Below, piece by piece: positions 179 through 10,638 of a stretch of 41,209 nucleotides of DNA (positions are counted from its first letter, which is position 1; each line of letters starts with the position of its first letter). The stretch comes from Acidimicrobiia bacterium (GTDB lineage Bacteria > Actinomycetota > Acidimicrobiia > IMCC26256 > JAMXLJ01): assembly GCA_035651955.1 (NCBI GenBank), contig DASRES010000061.1, forward strand, positions 1 to 41,209. Reading direction: 5' to 3'. Position numbers and translations under genes: made by a program. Under the pieces are notes generated by a model that ran no database searches, was not told the DNA's origin, and saw nothing but the letters and a program-made list of their open reading frames with translations.

Positions 179-729
179 GCGCGCCCGCACCGCTGCTCAC
201 GGTCGGGCACGGAACGCTCACGGCCGAGGAGCTCACCCGGGTGCTCCACGACGCGGGCGTCGAGCTGCTCGTCGACGTCCGATCGCACCCGGGCAGCCGC
301 CGCCACCCGCAGTTCGGTCGTGACGCGATGGCACGCTGGTTGCCGGACGACGCAGGCATCGCGTACGAGTGGGCGCCCGGCCTCGGCGGTCGGCGACGCA
401 CGAACCCGGCGTCGCGCAACACCGCGCTCACACATCCCGCGTTCCGCGGCTACGCCGACTACATGGCGACACCGGAGTTCGCCGACGCGCTCGACCGGCT
501 CATGACGAAGAGACAGGGCCGGCGCACGACCGTCATGTGCGCGGAGTCGGTGTGGTGGCGGTGTCACCGGCGACTGCTCGCCGACGCGGCCGTGTTGCTG
601 CGGGACACGCCCGTCGTCCACCTGTTCCACGACGGCCGCCTGCAACCGCACCGCCCGACTCCCGAGGCGCGCGTCGAGGACGGTGTCCTCGTGTACGACG
701 CCGGCGAAGCCCGCTTGCCGGGCGTCTGA
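175..729 (+). CDS. DUF488 family protein
   Basis: 184 residues, the usual size for DUF488. The family signatures are visible in order: TVGHGT at residues 9-14, DVRSHPGSRRHPQFG at 34-48, GIAYEW at 61-66, LGGRR at 70-74, and the late CAESVWWRCHRRLL block beginning at Cys122 (Cys122, Glu124, Cys130, His131). The biochemical role of DUF488 is not established; the conserved Cys/His/Arg residues suggest a small catalytic or nucleic-acid related domain, but that is inference. It starts at the ATG overlapping the previous stop and ends about 25 bases before bioB, so the two may be co-transcribed. Confidence 0.9.
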   Translation: MSAPAPLLTVGHGTLTAEELTRVLHDAGVELLVDVRSHPGSRRHPQFGRDAMARWLPDDAGIAYEWAPGLGGRRRTNPASRNTALTHPAFRGYADYMATPEFADALDRLMTKRQGRRTTVMCAESVWWRCHRRLLADAAVLLRDTPVVHLFHDGRLQPHRPTPEARVEDGVLVYDAGEARLPGV

Positions 730-754
730 GAGAGCTCCACTACGCTCCCCGCCC

Positions 755-1834
755 ATGCCGCTCGCCACCGCCGAACGTGCCCTGCTCGAAGAGCGCCGAC
801 CGCTGACGCGCGACGAGGTGCTCGCGGTCGCGCACCGCCCGCTCGACGAGCTTCCCGATCTGATCGCGCTGGCGCACCGCGTGCGCCTCGCGTACTGCGG
901 GCCGGAGGTCGAGCTCGAGAGCCTGATCAACGCGAAGTCGGGTGCGTGTCCCGAGGACTGCACGTTCTGCTCGCAGTCGGTCCGCTACCACACGGGCGTC
1001 GACGTGTACGCGTTCCTCGATCTCGACGACGTCCTGGAAGCCGCACGCGCGACGCGCGCCGCGGGCGCGACGCAGTTCTGCATCGTCGTCGCGGTGCGCG
1101 GTCCCGAGGAACGGCTGCTGCGCAAGGTGATCGACGCCGTCCATGCGGTGCACGACGAGACCGGGCTCGAGGTCGCGTGCTCGCTCGGTCTGCTGACGCG
1201 TGAGCAGGCACAGCGCCTCGCGGATGCAGGTGTGCGCCGCTACAACCACAACCTCGAGACGTGCCGCGCGCTCTACCCGTCGATCTGCACGACCCACTCG
1301 TGGGACGACCGGCTGCAGACGGCGCAGTACGCGAAGGACGCGGGGATGGAGCTGTGCTCCGGCGGGATCCTCGGCATGGGCGAGACGCTCGAGCAGCGCA
1401 TCGACTTCGCGTTCGAGCTCGCCGCGCTCGACCCGTGCGAGGTGCCGATCAACCTGCTCGACCCGCGTCCGGGGACGCCGCTCGCCGACTCGGTGCTCAT
1501 GTCGCCGCGCGAGGCGCTGCAGGCGATCGCCCTGTTCCGGCTCGTGCTGCCGCGCGCGTGGCTGCGACTCGCGGGCGGGCGCGAGCGCGTGCTCGGGGAG
1601 CTGCAGTCGATGGGCCTCCTCGCCGGCGCCAACGCGCTCATCGTCGGCAACTACCTGACGACCGGTGGGCGGTCACCCGAGGAGGACCGCGCGCTGCTCG
1701 ACGCGCTCGGCATGCCGGTCGCGGACGGGCCGGGCGAGGGTCGCTTCGTCGTCGACGACCGCGGCGCGCACTCGCTCCCCGCGCGGACGTCGATCCCCGT
1801 GTCGGTCAGCGGCGCAGGTGGACCGTCTCGTTGA
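755..1834 (+). CDS. bioB: Biotin synthase (radical SAM)
   Basis: Converts dethiobiotin to biotin by sulfur insertion using S-adenosylmethionine and two iron-sulfur clusters, in the cytoplasm. The 359-residue protein carries the radical-SAM motif CPEDCTFC (Cys65, Cys69, Cys72). It also keeps the residues typical of [2Fe-2S] binding: Cys in QFCIVVAVRGP, Cys in EVACSLG, Cys in ELCSGGILGMGE and Arg in RLAGGRE. YNHNLET and GNYLTTGG are further BioB signatures. I chose the ATG at 755, about 25 bases after the DUF488 stop, because an upstream in-frame start would run into that gene. The last 29 bases overlap the convergent histidine phosphatase gene. No bioA, bioD or bioF is seen here. Confidence 0.97.
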   Translation: MPLATAERALLEERRPLTRDEVLAVAHRPLDELPDLIALAHRVRLAYCGPEVELESLINAKSGACPEDCTFCSQSVRYHTGVDVYAFLDLDDVLEAARATRAAGATQFCIVVAVRGPEERLLRKVIDAVHAVHDETGLEVACSLGLLTREQAQRLADAGVRRYNHNLETCRALYPSICTTHSWDDRLQTAQYAKDAGMELCSGGILGMGETLEQRIDFAFELAALDPCEVPINLLDPRPGTPLADSVLMSPREALQAIALFRLVLPRAWLRLAGGRERVLGELQSMGLLAGANALIVGNYLTTGGRSPEEDRALLDALGMPVADGPGEGRFVVDDRGAHSLPARTSIPVSVSGAGGPSR

Positions 1835-2387
1835 AGCTCATCAGGTAGGGACCGGCGCGTCGCCGGCCGAGCCGCGTGATCGAGCCGAGCGACAGGTGCA
1901 TGTGCCACGCGAGGTCGTCGCCGGCGCCGAGCGCCCAGGCGACCGCGGCCTTGATCGGTGAGACGTGCGAGACGGCGACGACGAGCCCGTCTCGCGCCAA
2001 CAGCTCGTCGCACAGCGTCGCGACCCGCGTGCCGACGTCGGTCAGGCTCTCGCCGTCCGGGAACGCGACGGCGGGGTCGGACGACAGCGCGGCCGCGTCG
2101 CGCGGGACCTCGGCGAGCGACCGTCGCTCCCACGCGCCGTAGTCGATCTCGATCAGCCGCTCTTCGACGGCCGGGACGATCCCGCACGCGTCACCGATCG
2201 CGTCCGCAGTCTGCCGCGCGCGCAGGAGCGGGCTGGTGACGATCTCGACCGGGTGTTCGTGAGCGAGCGCCCGCGCGGCCGCACGCGCCTGCATCCGGCC
2301 CAGCGCGGTGAGGGGCGGATCGGAGCGGCCGAGGAGACGGCCCGCGCGGTTGTCCGCCGTCTCGCCGTGCCGTACGAAGACGAGCAT
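1806..2387 (-). CDS. Histidine phosphatase (phosphoglycerate-mutase-like) family protein
   Basis: 193 residues with the complete phosphohistidine-phosphatase signature. VRHGET at residues 5-10 holds nucleophile His7, and TSPLLRARQTA at 51-61 gives the second Arg. LIEIDYGAWE at 78-87 holds the acidic residue, and AVSHVSPIK at 138-146 holds the second His (141). Substrates cannot be read from sequence; relatives include alpha-ribazole phosphatase (CobC) and broad phosphatases. Its ATG at 2387 overlaps the stop of the upstream membrane-protein gene, making it the last gene of a five-gene minus-strand operon. In mycobacteria the equivalent domain is fused to RNase H (Rv2228c), whose RNase H half here lies two genes upstream. 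The 3' end overlaps bioB convergently. Confidence 0.92.
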   Translation of the reverse strand: MLVFVRHGETADNRAGRLLGRSDPPLTALGRMQARAAARALAHEHPVEIVTSPLLRARQTADAIGDACGIVPAVEERLIEIDYGAWERRSLAEVPRDAAALSSDPAVAFPDGESLTDVGTRVATLCDELLARDGLVVAVSHVSPIKAAVAWALGAGDDLAWHMHLSLGSITRLGRRRAGPYLMSFNETVHLRR

Positions 2388-2899
2388 CAACGGGGCGGTC
2401 GGCGGACGGGACGGGCGGTCGCGCGTGGCGCAACCGCGAGCCGGCCCGTCCGTAGGAACGTCTCGCGCGTCCGGCGGTTCGCGAGGCCGAACCGGTCCAC
2501 CATCCAGACGATCGCGATCGCGCCCGCGAGCTCCTCGAGCACGACGACGCCCCACGCGGGCAGCAGCGCACCGTGCGGGAACGACGCGCCCAGCGTCGGC
2601 CACCACAGGACGTGCGTGTCGGTCCACGCGCCCGCGAGCACGAGCCCGCAGAACATGCCGATCGGCAGGCACAGCAACCGCCGGCGGAGCAACCGCGGGC
2701 GGCCGATCGTCGCGAGCATCACCGCGGCGAGGAGGGCGACCGCGCCGAGCAGGGTGTGGCCGAACGCGGGGCGGCCCCACGGGGCGTCGATCACGAGCGG
2801 CAGCAGCGATCCGAGCGCGACGAGGCGGTAGTCGACGCCGTGGCTGCGGAACACCGCCCACACGATGAGCACCGAGCCCGCGACGTACCAGAGGAACAC
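2387..2899 (-). CDS. Multi-pass membrane protein, possibly YdjM/DUF457-like
   Basis: 170 residues with about four hydrophobic segments: near residues 3-18, 25-38, 48-66 and 77-92, with a further one around 113-135. The segment SLLPLVIDAPWGRPAFGHTL has an Asp followed by His at the spacing seen in YdjM/DUF457 membrane-bound putative metal hydrolases, but the match is loose and I would not claim activity. The tail is Arg/Pro-rich and probably cytoplasmic. The start is GTG at 2899, only three bases after the RNase H stop, and its stop overlaps the phosphatase start, so it is translationally locked between those two genes. That position is unusual because the flanking genes are fused in mycobacteria. 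Confidence 0.8.
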   Translation of the reverse strand: MFLWYVAGSVLIVWAVFRSHGVDYRLVALGSLLPLVIDAPWGRPAFGHTLLGAVALLAAVMLATIGRPRLLRRRLLCLPIGMFCGLVLAGAWTDTHVLWWPTLGASFPHGALLPAWGVVVLEELAGAIAIVWMVDRFGLANRRTRETFLRTGRLAVAPRATARPVRRPPR

Positions 2900-2902
2900 G
2901 GC

Positions 2903-3340
2903 TCAGACCTCGCCGGGCGGCAGGTCGAGCGCGGCGTTGACGAGCGCGTCGGCGTCGGTGTTCTGCTCACGGGGCACGTGCTCGAGATCGACACGCTCGT
3001 AGGGCGCGAGCAACGCGCGCGCCCGGTCGAAGAGCGGACGCAGGCCCGCGTGCTTCACCTTGTAACGACCCTCGAGCTGGCGGATGAGCAGCTGGGAATC
3101 GGCGCGAACGTGGATCCCGCGCGCCGGGAAGTCGCGCGCGGCCTCCAGGCCCGCGATCAACGCCTCGTACTCGGCCACGTTGTTCGTCGCGACGCCGATG
3201 CGACGGCTGACAGTCGCGAGCCGCGTCGGTGGACGGGTCGACGGGTCGAGCACGACCGCGCCGATGGCGGCGGGACCCGGGTTCCCGCGCGCGCCGCCGT
3301 CGCAGTAGAGCAGCACTGCCTCGCGACGCCCGTCGCTCAC
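2903..3340 (-). CDS. RNase HI-type ribonuclease
   Basis: 145 residues, a single RNase H domain that would cleave RNA in RNA-DNA hybrids. The four acidic catalytic positions are visible: Asp14 in LYCDGGARGNPGP, Glu57 in NNVAEYEAL, Asp81 in VRADSQL, and Asp131 in the NTDADALVN block. The last is preceded by His121 in HVPREQN. TNNVAEYEALIAGL is characteristic of the actinobacterial and archaeal-like type I group. I chose GTG at 3340 because it overlaps the upstream zinc-ribbon stop (GTGA) and places the first beta strand properly; the longer open frame is a shadow of that gene. The fused phosphatase domain seen in mycobacterial Rv2228c is absent and is encoded separately downstream. Confidence 0.92.
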   Translation of the reverse strand: MSDGRREAVLLYCDGGARGNPGPAAIGAVVLDPSTRPPTRLATVSRRIGVATNNVAEYEALIAGLEAARDFPARGIHVRADSQLLIRQLEGRYKVKHAGLRPLFDRARALLAPYERVDLEHVPREQNTDADALVNAALDLPPGEV

Positions 3341-4056
3341 GGCTGCGGCACCAGGATGCAGCCGCAATTGTCGCAGAACGCGACGGTCCCGTCCGCCGCG
3401 CGCTTGATCCGCTCGGCCTCCGTCGCCGGGATGTCGAGGTGGCATCCCTGGCAGGTCCGTCCGACGAGGCGCGCCGCGCCGACACCGCGCGCCTGGGCGC
3501 GACAGCGTTCGTACGTCGTGAGGAGGTCGGCCGGGAGGTCGCGCGTCAGCTCGCCGCGCGCGCCACTCTCCTGCGCGATCTCGCCGTCGATCGTCGCCTC
3601 CTGCTCGGCCAGCGCCGCTCGCTGGTCCGCGACGCCCGCCTCGATGCCGGCGATCTGCGCCTCGAACGCGGCGACCTCGGCGTCGAGCGACTCGCGCTGC
3701 TCCATCAGCGCGAGCTCGTCGTCCTCGACCGACGAGCGGTGACGGCGGAGCTGCTCGATGTCCGCCTGCATGGCCTGCAGCTCCCGCGGTGAGGAGATCT
3801 CGCCCGAGTAGAGCCGCTTCTCCGTCTCGATCGCGCGCTGTTCGAGGGCGCGCGCCTCGTCGTCGAGACGGCGCTCCTCGCGGGCGACGTCGTCGCGCCG
3901 GGCACGCGCGTCCGCGAGCAGCGGGGTGAGCTCGCGCAGGCGCGCGTCCGCCTCCGCGAGCGCGGCGCGCTCGGGCAGCGTGTCGCGCCGATGCCGGAGG
4001 CGGTCGATGGCGGTGTCGCGTTCCTGGACCGCGAGCAACGTGTCGAGCGCGGGCAT
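3337..4056 (-). CDS. Coiled-coil protein with C4 zinc ribbon (CT398/Rv2229c-like)
   Basis: 239 residues. Residues 1-170 are a long charged coiled coil with heptad-like Leu/Ala and many Glu/Arg. RLYSGEISSPRELQAMQADI (81-100) is the conserved turn of this family. The C-terminus has a four-Cys zinc ribbon: Cys202 and Cys205 in TCQGC, Cys228 and Cys231 in FCDNCG. The family is widespread in actinobacteria and is usually annotated as a C4-type zinc-ribbon protein of unknown function, often next to RNase H as here. I chose the ATG at 4056, ten bases past the penicillin-binding protein stop; upstream residues in the longer frame are low-complexity Arg from that gene's tail. Confidence 0.93.
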   Translation of the reverse strand: MPALDTLLAVQERDTAIDRLRHRRDTLPERAALAEADARLRELTPLLADARARRDDVAREERRLDDEARALEQRAIETEKRLYSGEISSPRELQAMQADIEQLRRHRSSVEDDELALMEQRESLDAEVAAFEAQIAGIEAGVADQRAALAEQEATIDGEIAQESGARGELTRDLPADLLTTYERCRAQARGVGAARLVGRTCQGCHLDIPATEAERIKRAADGTVAFCDNCGCILVPQP

Positions 4057-4066
4057 CCCGGCGAGA

Positions 4067-6277
4067 CTACCGGGGCACTGCTGCGGTGGTGACCGTGCTC
4101 GGAGGCGGTGACGACGACGGCGTCGGCTTCGCGGACGTGCTCGTCGTCGCGGGCGCGCTCGTCGACGTCGGGGGCTGCGTCGGCGGCGCCGACGAGGGCG
4201 GCGACTGGCCACCCGACCCGCCGCTGTCCGGCTGCGCCGACGAGGTGCCGCGACCCGCGTCGGTGATGCGCCGACCGGGCGGCCACAGCGACTGGTCGGG
4301 CGCGACGAAGTCCTCGTTCGGCTGGCCCGCGAGCGCGGAGTTCATGAAGTTCTTCCAGATGATCGCGGGCCACGTCCCGCCGAACACGGTGTTGTAGCGA
4401 CCGACACGGCCCATCGGGGTCTCGCTCGCGAGGTTCCCCATCCACACGACGGCGGTGAGCTGCGGCGTGTACCCGTCGAACCAGGCGTCGGTCTCGTTGT
4501 CCGTCGTGCCCGTCTTGCCCGCCGCGACACGACCGCCGTCGAGCCGCGCGCTCGTACCGGTGCCGTTCGTGATGACGCCACGAAGGATGTCCGTGACGGT
4601 GCGGGCGACCTGCGGATCGATCACGCGGTTGCCGGCCGTCTTGTTCTGGAAGATCGTCTTGCCGTCGGGCCCGACGACCTTCGTGACGAAGATCGGGTCG
4701 TGACGCACGCCGTCCGCCGCGAAGGTGTTGAAGATCGTCGCCATGTCGAGCGGCGTCTGACCGCCGGCCGACCCGTACACCATCGTCGGCACCTTCACCT
4801 GCGCGGTGTTGCCGTTGACGTCGGGCCGGTTGTCGGTCTTGTCGAGCTGCCAGTAAGGGCACGTCGCCTTGGTCGTCGTCGCACCGGCGCAGATGCCGAG
4901 CCGCTGCGCCATCTCGGTGATCTTGTCGAGGCCGAGGCTCGCGCCGATGCGCAGGTACGCGCAGTTCACGGAGTCGACCGTCGCAGTGCGGATGCTCTCC
5001 GTGCCCGGGCCCTGCTCGGCGTTCTTCAGGGGCGGTGTCGGCGGGTAGCCGGGGAACTGCACGACGCACGGCGACGTACCGCTCACGCTGTCGTTCGGCG
5101 AGTAGCCGTTCTCGATCGCGGTCGCGAGCGTGACGACCTTGAACGTCGACCCCGGCTGGCGTCCCGAGTTCGCACCGGCGCGGTAGTGGGTGGCGATGTC
5201 GAACTGGTTCTGCTGGAACCCGGGGCCGCCGATCAGCGCGCGCACCGCGCCCGTCTGCGGGTCCATGACGACCATCGCCGCGGTGATGCCGTCGGCACGG
5301 GGCGTCGCCTGTGCCAACGTGCCCGCGATCGCCTGCTGGGCCAGGTACTGCAGGCGCGGGTCGTACGTCGTGTAGACGCGCAGGCCGCCGCGCAGGACCG
5401 CGTTCTCGCGGTCGGCCGCGGTCGCGCCGAGGCGAGGATCGTCGAGCAGGCGCTGCTCGACCTCGGCGAGGAAGTAGTTGTCGGGGCGGTAGTCGGCCGG
5501 TGGCAGCTTCGTCGGCAGCGGCTCGAGCGCGGCGGCGAACGCCTGCATCCGGTTGATGTAGTGCTGGTCGATCATGCGCTGCAGGACGACGAGGCGGCGC
5601 TCGCGCGCGGCGTCGGGGTGGACGAACGGGTTGTAGCCCTCGGGGTTCTGGATGAGTCCCGCGAGCAGCGACGCCTGCCCCAACGTGAGCTGGCCCAGCG
5701 GCTCACCGTCGAAGAAGCGCTCGGCCGCGGTCTTCACGCCGTAGGAGCCCTGCCCGAAGTAGACGGTGTTGAGGTACTCCTCGAGGATCTGCTTCTTCGA
5801 GAACTGGTCGGCGAAGCGGTAGGCGAGGATCACCTCGCGGACCTTGCGGTTGAGGTCGCGCTTCGGCGTGAGGATCCGGTTCTTGATGAGCTGTTGCGTG
5901 ATCGTCGAGCCGCCCTGCTCGACCCTTCCCGACGTGACGTTCGCCCAGAGCGCGCGGAACGTCGACTGCAGGTCGACGCCCGGGTTCTTCCAGAACGTGC
6001 GGTCCTCGGTCGCGATCACCGCGTTGACGAGGTCCTTCGGGACCTGCGCGAGCTTCACGCGCTCGCGGTCGTCCGCGGCGAAGATCCCGATCTGGTTGCC
6101 GTTGGCGTCGTAGACCAGTGTCCGCTGCGCCAGCGTGCTCAGGTGGTCGGCGATCTTCGAGCTGAACCGGGTGCTGTTGAACAGCGTCGCGGACGCGGGG
6201 ATCAGCGCCGCGAAGCACAGACCCAGACCTGCCCCGCCGGCGAGGACGATGACGGCGAAGCGCCGCAGCCTGCGCAC
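4067..6277 (-). CDS. Class A penicillin-binding protein (glycosyltransferase/transpeptidase)
   Basis: 736 residues; a bifunctional enzyme that polymerises and cross-links peptidoglycan at the outer face of the membrane. There is a signal anchor at about residues 7-29. The GT51 domain spans about 50-230, with catalytic Glu91 in ATEDRTFW, GGSTITQQL (122-130) and a second Glu in ILEEYLN. The transpeptidase domain runs about 330-650, with nucleophile Ser377 in GSTFK (Lys380), SVN at 436-438 and KTGT at 588-591. The last ~70 residues are Ser/Thr/Pro-rich, a likely wall-spanning tail. Four Cys (404, 439, 463, 473) in the extracytoplasmic part may form disulfides. The start is GTG at 6277; the ATG 18 bases upstream is followed by an in-frame stop. 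It heads the five-gene operon. Confidence 0.96.
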   Translation of the reverse strand: MRRLRRFAVIVLAGGAGLGLCFAALIPASATLFNSTRFSSKIADHLSTLAQRTLVYDANGNQIGIFAADDRERVKLAQVPKDLVNAVIATEDRTFWKNPGVDLQSTFRALWANVTSGRVEQGGSTITQQLIKNRILTPKRDLNRKVREVILAYRFADQFSKKQILEEYLNTVYFGQGSYGVKTAAERFFDGEPLGQLTLGQASLLAGLIQNPEGYNPFVHPDAARERRLVVLQRMIDQHYINRMQAFAAALEPLPTKLPPADYRPDNYFLAEVEQRLLDDPRLGATAADRENAVLRGGLRVYTTYDPRLQYLAQQAIAGTLAQATPRADGITAAMVVMDPQTGAVRALIGGPGFQQNQFDIATHYRAGANSGRQPGSTFKVVTLATAIENGYSPNDSVSGTSPCVVQFPGYPPTPPLKNAEQGPGTESIRTATVDSVNCAYLRIGASLGLDKITEMAQRLGICAGATTTKATCPYWQLDKTDNRPDVNGNTAQVKVPTMVYGSAGGQTPLDMATIFNTFAADGVRHDPIFVTKVVGPDGKTIFQNKTAGNRVIDPQVARTVTDILRGVITNGTGTSARLDGGRVAAGKTGTTDNETDAWFDGYTPQLTAVVWMGNLASETPMGRVGRYNTVFGGTWPAIIWKNFMNSALAGQPNEDFVAPDQSLWPPGRRITDAGRGTSSAQPDSGGSGGQSPPSSAPPTQPPTSTSAPATTSTSAKPTPSSSPPPSTVTTAAVPR

Positions 6278-7316: not shown

Positions 7317-7437
7317 CCCGCGATGCTGCCCGATTGCGCGTTCGCTGTCACACCCCGTCGTTAGGGTCTGGGTCGTGGGAGTCGCGAACGAAGCCGGGCC
7401 GTGCGCGGAGCGCGGGACGGCCCGGCCCGAGGGAGCA

Positions 7438-10400
7438 ATGAGCGCGGAGAACAGGTTGCGGCTCGTCCCGTTCGGCGGTGCGGCGCACCGGGCGCTGGAA
7501 GCGCTGCTCGCGGACCTGCAGGCCGACGATCCTCTCGCCGCGGTCACCGTCGTCGTCCCCACGGTGTACGCGGCGCTCTCGGTGCGGCGGCGGCTCGCGT
7601 CGCGCCTGCACGACGGGCGCGGGTTCGCGAACGTGCGGTTCGAGCTGATGCCCCGGGTCGCCGGGCTGCTCGGCGCGCCACGTCTCGAAGCGGCCGGCCG
7701 CCGGCCGCTCACACCGGCGACGGCAGCCGAGATCGTGCGGTCCGTGCTCGGTGACGTGCCGGGACCGCTCGGCGACCTGCGCGACCACCCGAGCACCGTG
7801 CGGGGCCTCGAACGGACGCTCGCCGACCTCCGGCGCGCCCGTCCCGCGACGTTGCAGCGGTTGCGGGCCCGGGGTGCACGCGCCGCGCACGTCGTCGCGT
7901 GTCTCGAGGAGTACCGACGGCGGACGCGGAACTTCTACGACGCCGACGACCTGCTCGACGCGGCGGCCGCGGCCGTGCACGACGATCCGTCGGCGACGCG
8001 CGAGCTCGGGTTCGTCGTCGTGTACCTCCCCGACGCGCTGTCGGTGAGCGAGCAGGAGCTCGTCGGCACGTTCGCGGCCACGGGCGGCGCGGCCGTGCTC
8101 CTCGGTACCACTGGCGAGCCCGACGTCGACGCGCCGACGATCGCGCTCGCGCAACGGCTCGCCGGCGTGCTCGGTCCCGCGGTGACCGTCGCCGGTGACG
8201 ACGCGGCCGCGCCGGACGTGCTGCTGGTCGACGCGCCCGATCCGGACGACGAGGTGCGCGCCGCGTTGCGGGAGGTGCTGCGACGGGCCGAGGACGGTCC
8301 GTCACCGGTGCCGCTGTCGCGCGTCGCGTTGCTGTACCGGATCGCCGAGCCGTACGCGCGCGTCGCGTTCGAACAGCTCGCCGCGGCCGGGATCCCGGCG
8401 AACGGCCCGACAGCGCGCCGCCTGCACGACTCCGGCGCCGGCCGCGTCCTCGAGGGTGCGCTCGCCCTCGCGACGTCCGACCTGCGCCGTGACGCGCTCG
8501 CGGCGTGGCTCGCGACCGCGCCACTGCGCGACCCGGGTGACGAGCACGGGATCGACGCGCACCGGTGGGACGTCGTGTCCCGGCTCGCCGGTGTCGTCGC
8601 GGGCGCCGACGAGTGGACGGCGCGGCTCGACACGCACGAGATGCGGCTCGAACGCCGAGCCGACGACCTGCGCGACGACGCCGACGCGACCGACGGCGTC
8701 CGCGGCGCGATCGACGTCGAGCTCGCGGAGACACGGCGGCTGCGTGCATTCGTCGAGCGGCTCGCCCAGGACCTCGTGGCACCCGAGCCGGCGACATGGG
8801 CGTCGCTCAGCGCGTGGGCCGTCGACCTGCTCGACCGTTACACCGGAGGAACCGCCGCGCGCGCGCACTGGCCCGAGATCGAGCAGCACGCCGCGCGCGA
8901 GATCGTCGCTCGCGTCCGGTCGCTCGGGGAGCTCGACGACGTCGCGGGCGACGCCGACCTCGCGGCGTTCCGCGTCGCGGTCGCCCGTGAGCTCGACGCC
9001 CCGCTTGGCCGCGAGGGCACGTTCGGGACGGGCGTCTTCGTCGGCCCGTTGCGCGCCGCGGCCGGGACCGACTTCGACGTCGTCGTCGTGCTCGGGATGA
9101 ACGAAGGAGCGTTCCCGCCCAGCGCGCGCGACGACCCGCTCCTCCCCGACGACGAGCGTGGCGGCACCGACGACGCCGACGAGATCGCGCCGCGCGCGAC
9201 CCGTCAGGACGAGCATCGCCGGTATCTCGCGGCACTCGCGTGCGCACCGGCGCGCGTCCTCACGTGGTCGCGTGCCGACGTGCGTGCGCAACGGGCGAGC
9301 AACCCGGCGCGCTGGCTGCTCGACGAGGCGTCGCGACTCGCGGGGCGCGTCCTCGGTGCGCCCGATCTCGCCGAGCTGGCCGCGCCCTGGTACCGGTCGG
9401 TCGAGTCGTTCGAGTCCGGTCTCGTCGACGAGTCCACGGAACCGGTGTCGTTCGGCGAGCTGGAGCTGCGCGAGCTGCGGTGCCTGCAGCGCGCGGGCGG
9501 TCGTGTCGACGACCACCCGTTCGTGCTCGGCGACGTCGCGCTCGCGCGCGGACTCGACGCCGTCCGCACGCGGACCGGTCGCGTGCTCGGCCGCTTCGAC
9601 GGGTACGTCGGCGATCTCCCCGACGTCGCGGGAGGTCTCGACCGCGTCCAGTCCGCGACGTCGCTGCAGCGGTACGCGACGTGCCCGCGCCAGTACTTCC
9701 TCTCGGAGGTCCTCGGGCTGCGCGACGTCGAACGGCCCGAGGCGACGGACGTGATCAACGGCCTGGACCGGGGGACGCTCGTCCACGCGATCCTCGAGCA
9801 GTTCGTGCGCGAGGCACGGCCCCGCTCGGCGCCCGGCGAGCCCTGGGACGCCCAGGAGCGCGCCCAGCTGCTCGCGATCGCGCAGCGTCACTTCGACGAC
9901 GCCGCGGCCCGCGGCATCACGGGCCGGTCGCTGCTGTGGCAGGTCGAGCAGCGCCGGATCCGGCGCGTGCTCATCGACGCGCTCGACGCCGACGAGCAGA
10001 ACCGCGCGTGCCTCGGTGTCGTGCCCGACCCCGGCCTGCTCGAGCTGTCGTTCGGCGACGACGATGCCGGCGAGCGTGGCGCGAACGTCCCGCCGGTCGA
10101 GATCGACCTCGGCGACGGCCGCCGGGTCGCGTTCCGGGGGCGCGTCGACCGCGTCGACCGCTCGCCCGACGGCACGCGTCTCGTCGTCCTCGACTACAAG
10201 ACCGGCAAGGACGACGAGTACAAGAAGCTCGATGCCGACCCGGTCCAGGCCGGCCGGCTCCTGCAGCTCCCGATCTACGCGCTCGCGGCGCGACACGTGG
10301 ACGAACGGGTCGCGGCTGTGTCCTCGTACTACTTCTTCCTGGAGCCGTCCACGCGCGACCACCTCCGTGGCTACACCGTGACGGACGAGACGCTCGACCG

Positions 10401-10638
10401 GCTCGGGGAGGTCCTGCGCGTCCTCACCGACGGCGTGCGCGACGGCCTGTTCCCCGCCCGCCCCGGTCCCGAGGACCGCGAGAGCTGGGCGAACTGCCGA
10501 TACTGCAGCTTCGACCGGATCTGCGCGCGCGACCGCGGTGCCGCCTGGCAGCGCGTGCAGACGGACGACCGGCTGCGCGCGTACGTCGAGCTCGCGGACG
10601 GACCGGTGGAGCCGGAGCCCGAGGAGGTCGGGTCGTGA
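7438..10638 (+). CDS. addB: AddB-like PD-(D/E)XK nuclease subunit with Fe-S cluster
   Basis: 1066 residues, the expected size of the AddB subunit of the AddAB helicase-nuclease that resects double-strand breaks for recombination. The C-terminal nuclease shows GRVDRVD near 902-907 and DYKTGK with Asp919/Lys921. It is bracketed by four Cys in the AddB order: Cys749 in YATCPRQYF, then Cys1020-X2-Cys1023-X5-Cys1029, which would hold a [4Fe-4S] cluster. VLGMNEGAFPPSARDDPLLPDDE is a typical AddB/RecC-type block. The N-terminal end (VPFGGAAHRALE) lacks a recognisable Walker A, so ATP hydrolysis by this subunit is doubtful. I chose the ATG at 7438, preceded by GGGAG. The stop overlaps the next start (GTGA). 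Confidence 0.9.
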   Translation: MSAENRLRLVPFGGAAHRALEALLADLQADDPLAAVTVVVPTVYAALSVRRRLASRLHDGRGFANVRFELMPRVAGLLGAPRLEAAGRRPLTPATAAEIVRSVLGDVPGPLGDLRDHPSTVRGLERTLADLRRARPATLQRLRARGARAAHVVACLEEYRRRTRNFYDADDLLDAAAAAVHDDPSATRELGFVVVYLPDALSVSEQELVGTFAATGGAAVLLGTTGEPDVDAPTIALAQRLAGVLGPAVTVAGDDAAAPDVLLVDAPDPDDEVRAALREVLRRAEDGPSPVPLSRVALLYRIAEPYARVAFEQLAAAGIPANGPTARRLHDSGAGRVLEGALALATSDLRRDALAAWLATAPLRDPGDEHGIDAHRWDVVSRLAGVVAGADEWTARLDTHEMRLERRADDLRDDADATDGVRGAIDVELAETRRLRAFVERLAQDLVAPEPATWASLSAWAVDLLDRYTGGTAARAHWPEIEQHAAREIVARVRSLGELDDVAGDADLAAFRVAVARELDAPLGREGTFGTGVFVGPLRAAAGTDFDVVVVLGMNEGAFPPSARDDPLLPDDERGGTDDADEIAPRATRQDEHRRYLAALACAPARVLTWSRADVRAQRASNPARWLLDEASRLAGRVLGAPDLAELAAPWYRSVESFESGLVDESTEPVSFGELELRELRCLQRAGGRVDDHPFVLGDVALARGLDAVRTRTGRVLGRFDGYVGDLPDVAGGLDRVQSATSLQRYATCPRQYFLSEVLGLRDVERPEATDVINGLDRGTLVHAILEQFVREARPRSAPGEPWDAQERAQLLAIAQRHFDDAAARGITGRSLLWQVEQRRIRRVLIDALDADEQNRACLGVVPDPGLLELSFGDDDAGERGANVPPVEIDLGDGRRVAFRGRVDRVDRSPDGTRLVVLDYKTGKDDEYKKLDADPVQAGRLLQLPIYALAARHVDERVAAVSSYYFFLEPSTRDHLRGYTVTDETLDRLGEVLRVLTDGVRDGLFPARPGPEDRESWANCRYCSFDRICARDRGAAWQRVQTDDRLRAYVELADGPVEPEPEEVGS

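Follow-up and report, generated by a model that had tools for sequence, protein, structure and literature searches.

A conserved acidimicrobial operon with a diverged YdjM-like membrane protein between separate counterparts of the two Rv2228c domains

Introduction

Proteins of the NIF3 (DUF34) family are widespread among bacteria. Associations of NIF3 genes with genes for DUF164 (COG1579) proteins and with RNase H are known in diverse bacteria (PMC3372290; PMC8469502). In Mycobacterium tuberculosis, the cluster Rv2230c-Rv2229c-Rv2228c has been published as an arrangement in which NIF3 is followed by a zinc-ribbon gene (ZNR) and by a single gene that encodes RNase H (RNH) fused to a histidine phosphatase (HP), that is, NIF3-ZNR-[RNH+HP] (PMC7466739). 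According to published work, Rv2229c occurs in cell-wall and membrane fractions and is essential in M. tuberculosis (PMC5947703). In M. smegmatis, the phosphatase domain contributes to B12 synthesis and does not depend on the RNase H domain for its function; the fusion of the Rv2228c type has been attributed to drift, with no precursor state described (PMC7466739).

Here we describe a locus of an Acidimicrobiia bacterium, located in a window that comprises the whole analysed stretch of 41,209 nucleotides. Relatives of ZNR, RNase H and the phosphatase occur in it in the same order as in M. tuberculosis and in M. smegmatis (MSMEG_4305/4306). Different from Rv2228c, in which RNase H and phosphatase are fused and no membrane protein is present, the window contains separate genes with the gene of a membrane protein (MEM) between them. 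The NIF3 gene upstream in M. tuberculosis corresponds to the cluster of other lineages, whereas the window has a penicillin-binding protein gene (PBP) at this place. Compared with the NIF3-DUF164-RNase H neighbourhoods, the window shares ZNR beside RNase H; those neighbourhoods keep NIF3, which the lineage of the window has lost and which the class retains in other families. No match came from literature searches on an RNase H operon of Acidimicrobiia or on a "CdsZ" zinc ribbon, and the DUF34 survey does not mention a YdjM-type protein, a term absent from its text.

Results

Gene content and organization of the locus

Five minus-strand genes lie in a row in the order PBP, ZNR, RNase H, MEM and HP (Table 1), with gaps of 10, −4, 3 and −1 bases; ZNR and RNase H overlap in GTGA, and MEM and HP in TGATG. 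The reading frames agree with the gene boundaries and gaps of the initial annotation. Because of these gap sizes, the genes are most likely co-transcribed. The initial annotation had not reported that MEM belongs to a known superfamily or that bioB, convergent with the operon at its 3′ end, shares 29 bases with the end of HP; many genomes of the same order have bioB in the same position beside the operon.

Table 1. Features of the window discussed in the text.
Feature	Position	Strand	Assignment	Evidence
PBP	4067-6277	-	Class A penicillin-binding protein, PBP1A type	Pfam Transgly 1e-60, Transpeptidase 8e-36
ZNR	3337-4056	-	Coiled-coil and C4 zinc-ribbon protein, COG1579/DUF164, Rv2229c/MSMEG_4306 type	CT398_CC 2.8e-36, Zn_ribbon_9 1.1e-9
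RNase H	2903-3340	-	RNase HI, RVT_3 type; counterpart of the Rv2228c N-terminal domain	RVT_3 4.7e-21
MEM	2387-2899	-	Helical membrane protein, diverged member of the YdjM family (PF04307)	Relatives above the PF04307 cut-off
HP	1806-2387	-	Histidine phosphatase, branch 1; groups with the Rv2228c C-terminal domain	His_Phos_1 2.4e-49
bioB	683-1834	+		
1087 aa frame	7375-10638	+	Resembles an AddB/PD-(D/E)XK-type nuclease-helicase subunit	By eye

Domains of the operon genes were assigned with Pfam and NCBIfam. ZNR exceeds the cut-offs of the CT398/FlgZ/Rv2229c family PF24481 (125.5 bits) and of PF02591 (38.6 bits), keeps its CxxC pairs intact (four cysteines in the translation), and has MSMEG_4306 as its closest PDB structure (5y05, E 7e-15). 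The RNase H, which matches RVT_3/RNase_H (RVT_3 75.4 bits against a cut-off of 21.6), is the only RVT_3 gene in the genome of the window. Its closest PDB structure is Rv2228c (3hst, E 2e-30), aligned across the catalytic D, E, D and D, all of which are kept. The bifunctional RNase H-phosphatase model NF005567 (Rv2228c/SCO2299) needs one polypeptide scoring above 326 bits; the genes here are separate and match its halves with 151.8 bits (RNase H) and 145.4 bits (HP).

The position of the fused domain, left open by quick phosphatase trees, was resolved in a careful tree of 56 phosphatases, in which the operonic HPs of the class and six fused actinomycete domains form a clade (97/88) apart from 30 paralogues. 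Judged from this sequence grouping, HP is the counterpart of the C-terminal CobC-like domain of Rv2228c. The tree and the 3hst match bear out the initial assignment of RNase H and HP to the two domains of Rv2228c.

Conservation within the class

In our sample of 148 genomes of the class, MEM was detected in 116, ZNR in 117 and the RVT_3 RNase H in 70. MEM is detectable in 67 of these 70 RNase H genomes, lying directly downstream of RNase H in all 67, and the 49 genomes in which all three genes were detected show the order ZNR-RNH-MEM without exception. Where ZNR and MEM occur without an RVT_3 RNase H, MEM comes straight after ZNR (46 of 47 genomes). Median gaps across the class, with start codons approximate and some genomes represented twice, are 14 bases for PBP-ZNR, 3 for RNH-MEM and −1 for MEM-HP (commonest value −4). 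The order recurs with short gaps far beyond chance, and the operon is conserved and old; the comparison of gene neighbourhoods thus upholds the earlier reading of one conserved operon, the arrangement not being unique to this contig.

Sixty-six genomes had enough downstream sequence for both enzymes to be scored: RNase H and HP are both present in 24, HP alone is present in 16 and RNase H alone in 8, and 18 lack the two. The stable core of the operon is ZNR with MEM, ZNR being the most constant partner of MEM, and RNase H and HP are gained and lost separately. MEM was rejected as a factor dependent on RNase H or HP, since it persists without either. Counting against the pairing of ZNR and MEM, MEM occurs without a recognised ZNR in family f3 and in one f16 genome. 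At two such loci (L041 of f16 and L043 of f3), MEM lies directly after PBP (18-19 bases), and ZNR is either lost or too diverged to be recognised. Reduced genomes of family f18, near 1 Mb in size (L062, L068 and L071), retain NIF3-ZNR-RNH-MEM, with very diverged ZNR and MEM (about 20-30% identity).

In many families of the class, the next gene upstream of ZNR is PBP. NIF3 is present in 51 of the 148 genomes, all belonging to families f18, f20, f22, f25, f27, f32 and f34, and at the class loci that were read it sits directly upstream of ZNR. It was found neither in the genome of the window itself (G000, 96% complete) nor in any class family where PBP precedes ZNR. The simplest reading is that PBP took the upstream slot after NIF3 had been lost in the lineage of the window. 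An operon headed by a cell-wall synthase, as initially described, is therefore a feature of part of the class, while elsewhere NIF3 occupies that position. The retention of PBP next to ZNR, with short gaps, across many families hints at more than chance. The PBP-headed operon may be linked to wall growth, and a membrane link of the operon is plausible.

Origin and ligand loss of the membrane protein

The MEM of the window has no curated Pfam or NCBIfam match and stays below the 29-bit cut-off of PF04307. Relatives exceed this cut-off as YdjM proteins (for example L056, 48.5 bits), and PF04307 matches at E 0.1 in 35 of 46 members of the MEM clade. A match to HisKA_7TM (Pfam E 0.0018, below cut-off) was rejected as compositional. 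All operonic MEMs fall on one side of a branch (support 97/98) that separates them from 10 other YdjM proteins of the phylum, and in this sequence tree they have a single origin. MEM thus shares its sequence family and motif positions with the YdjM proteins, which are predicted membrane-bound metal-dependent hydrolases, whereas the operonic clade is separate from other actinobacterial YdjM proteins and the order of the window has lost the predicted ligands.

The putative metal positions, deduced from the family, are PDxxD, H and HxxxD (a D/D/H/H/D set). The full set is kept in 26 of 29 MEMs of other classes and in 25 of 43 of the same class, but in a single one of the 32 from the same order, and it is absent in the MEM of the window. 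The last H and D, those of HxxxD, are present in 29/29 and 27/29 MEMs outside the class and in 40/43 and 36/43 within it, respectively; both are lost in 31/32 MEMs of the order, compared with 0/29 outside the class, and the first D of the set is kept in only one MEM of the order. Typically, HLVLDG has become GLVLSG in this order, and it reads GLVLAG in the window. The MEM of the window is nevertheless 83% identical to that of a same-genus relative, the highest value of four operon genes tested, with a dN/dS of 0.17. In the order of the window, MEM is therefore without its predicted metal ligands and yet, by these substitution rates, under purifying selection. Such conservation despite ligand loss would be expected of a MEM that has kept a non-catalytic role.

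AlphaFold models of MEM are confident and helical (pLDDT 94). Foldseek found no similar solved fold in the PDB (best E 2.7), so that a phospholipase-C-like fold of MEM would be a prediction from sequence.

Relatives outside the class and fused forms

A profile search finds MEM in other actinobacterial families too. The order ZNR-RNH-MEM occurs outside the class in f37, f69 and f72, ZNR-RNH-MEM-HP in f51 and f78, and ZNR-(RNH)-MEM-HP in f42. In f51, NIF3 precedes ZNR by about nine bases, which gives the full NIF3-ZNR-RNH-MEM-HP cluster. Six families with the RNase H-phosphatase fusion (f54, f59, f66, f74, f83 and f86) have NIF3-ZNR-[RNH+HP]. Across the remainder of the phylum as sampled, ZNR-RNH lacking MEM is the most frequent state; NIF3-ZNR-RNH lacking MEM is common in other parts of the phylum.

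In the phosphatase tree, the f51 HP is placed near the operonic and fused HPs, and the f42 HP elsewhere. Since the f42 phosphatase is of another type, genes appear to have joined the position after MEM more than once; at the f42 loci (L091, L096 and L099), a phosphatase of another subgroup beside MEM was apparently recruited independently to the same position. A tree of ZNR and RNase H has weakly supported deep branches, and MEM presence requires five changes on it.

Discussion

Direction of change

We propose that the ancestral cluster would have been NIF3-ZNR-RNH-MEM and that the phosphatase would have joined it downstream of MEM before the Acidimicrobiia and Actinomycetes split. In the Actinomycetes, MEM would then have disappeared, and the RNase H and phosphatase genes on either side of it would have fused, giving rise to Rv2228c; in the lineage of the window, NIF3 would have been lost, with the class A PBP gene in its place. 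MEM derives from the YdjM membrane hydrolase-like family and, with its predicted metal ligands lost in this order, may now serve as a non-catalytic partner in the membrane to which ZNR is tethered, while RNase H and HP may be co-expressed passengers with separate substrates. To this explanation as a whole, an old operon with a ZNR-(RNase H)-MEM core, fusion after MEM loss and a non-catalytic MEM, we assign a probability of about 0.6.

For the direction of change on its own, the sequence comparison indicates that the fusion probably derives from separate genes with MEM between them. An unfused, MEM-bearing ancestor with fusion after MEM loss is favoured by the one origin and one position of operonic MEMs, by their presence in several deep branches of the ZNR and RNase H tree, and by the nesting of the fused domains near MEM-bearing lineages in that tree. 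The initial annotation had described the two halves as split by a membrane protein; the direction is likely the reverse, with separate genes and MEM appearing ancestral and the fusion derived.

The ancestral state might instead have been ZNR-RNH-HP, with the Actinomycetes fusing RNase H and phosphatase directly and a YdjM gene entering between them in the Acidimicrobiia and then spreading to, or independently entering, other classes. Both the prevalence of ZNR-RNH without MEM in the rest of the phylum sample and the five state changes are in keeping with such a history, and given these changes and the weak deep support, insertion and loss of MEM are not fully separable. However, later insertion sits poorly with operonic MEMs of one origin that always occupy the same position, and the families with MEM and no HP (f37, f69 and f72) offer no existing RNH-HP pair to enter. 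We consider later insertion rather unlikely.

Roles of the encoded proteins

HP might be the alpha-ribazole phosphatase (CobC) of B12 synthesis, as in M. smegmatis. It groups with the CobC domain of Rv2228c and matches TIGR03162 (CobC) with E 1e-32, although its 112.7 bits are below the curated cut-off of 162.9. CobS, the cobalamin synthase that works with CobC, was however not found in the window's 96% complete genome, and 22 of 27 same-order genomes with HP have it without CobS. A B12 role of HP is improbable for this reason, and we rejected it for this organism.

The initial annotation also suggested that RNase H and phosphatase act in a shared process. The two might work together in nucleic acid or cofactor processing at the membrane, with MEM tethering both; that RNH, MEM and HP are translationally coupled in the window and its relatives, and that the two enzymes are fused in Actinomycetes, could point this way. 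The genomes that have one enzyme without the other (HP alone in 16/66, RNase H alone in 8/66) and the functional dissociation of the domains in M. smegmatis (PMC7466739) speak against this idea, which we regard as having little likelihood. It is highly improbable that MEM has remained an active membrane hydrolase (YdjM or zinc phospholipase C type) in this organism. Relatives outside the order retain the D/D/H/H/D set, and a few weakly match Zn_dep_PLPC, but in nearly all MEMs of the order both the H and the D of HxxxD have been replaced, and the first D is kept in a single one.

Under the preferred explanation, an old operon with a non-catalytic MEM, the near-constant pairing of ZNR and MEM leads us to suggest, tentatively and at somewhat less than even odds, that MEM is the membrane partner of ZNR and contacts it. 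The cell-wall and membrane location reported for the ZNR homologue Rv2229c would agree with this role (PMC5947703). The broadest form of the proposal, in which a dead YdjM relative would be the dedicated partner of the essential Rv2229c-type protein in deep actinobacteria and its loss would have created the mycobacterial fusion, is on the unlikely side.

Significance

An unfused operon in which a MEM of single origin lies between orthologues of both domains would offer a precursor of the Rv2228c-type fusion, and such a precursor would fit the independence of the Rv2228c-type domains. MEM would also be the closest genomic neighbour named for the Rv2229c-type proteins, which are essential in M. 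tuberculosis. With predicted ligands kept in some orders and lost in one, MEM may represent a natural pseudoenzyme series.
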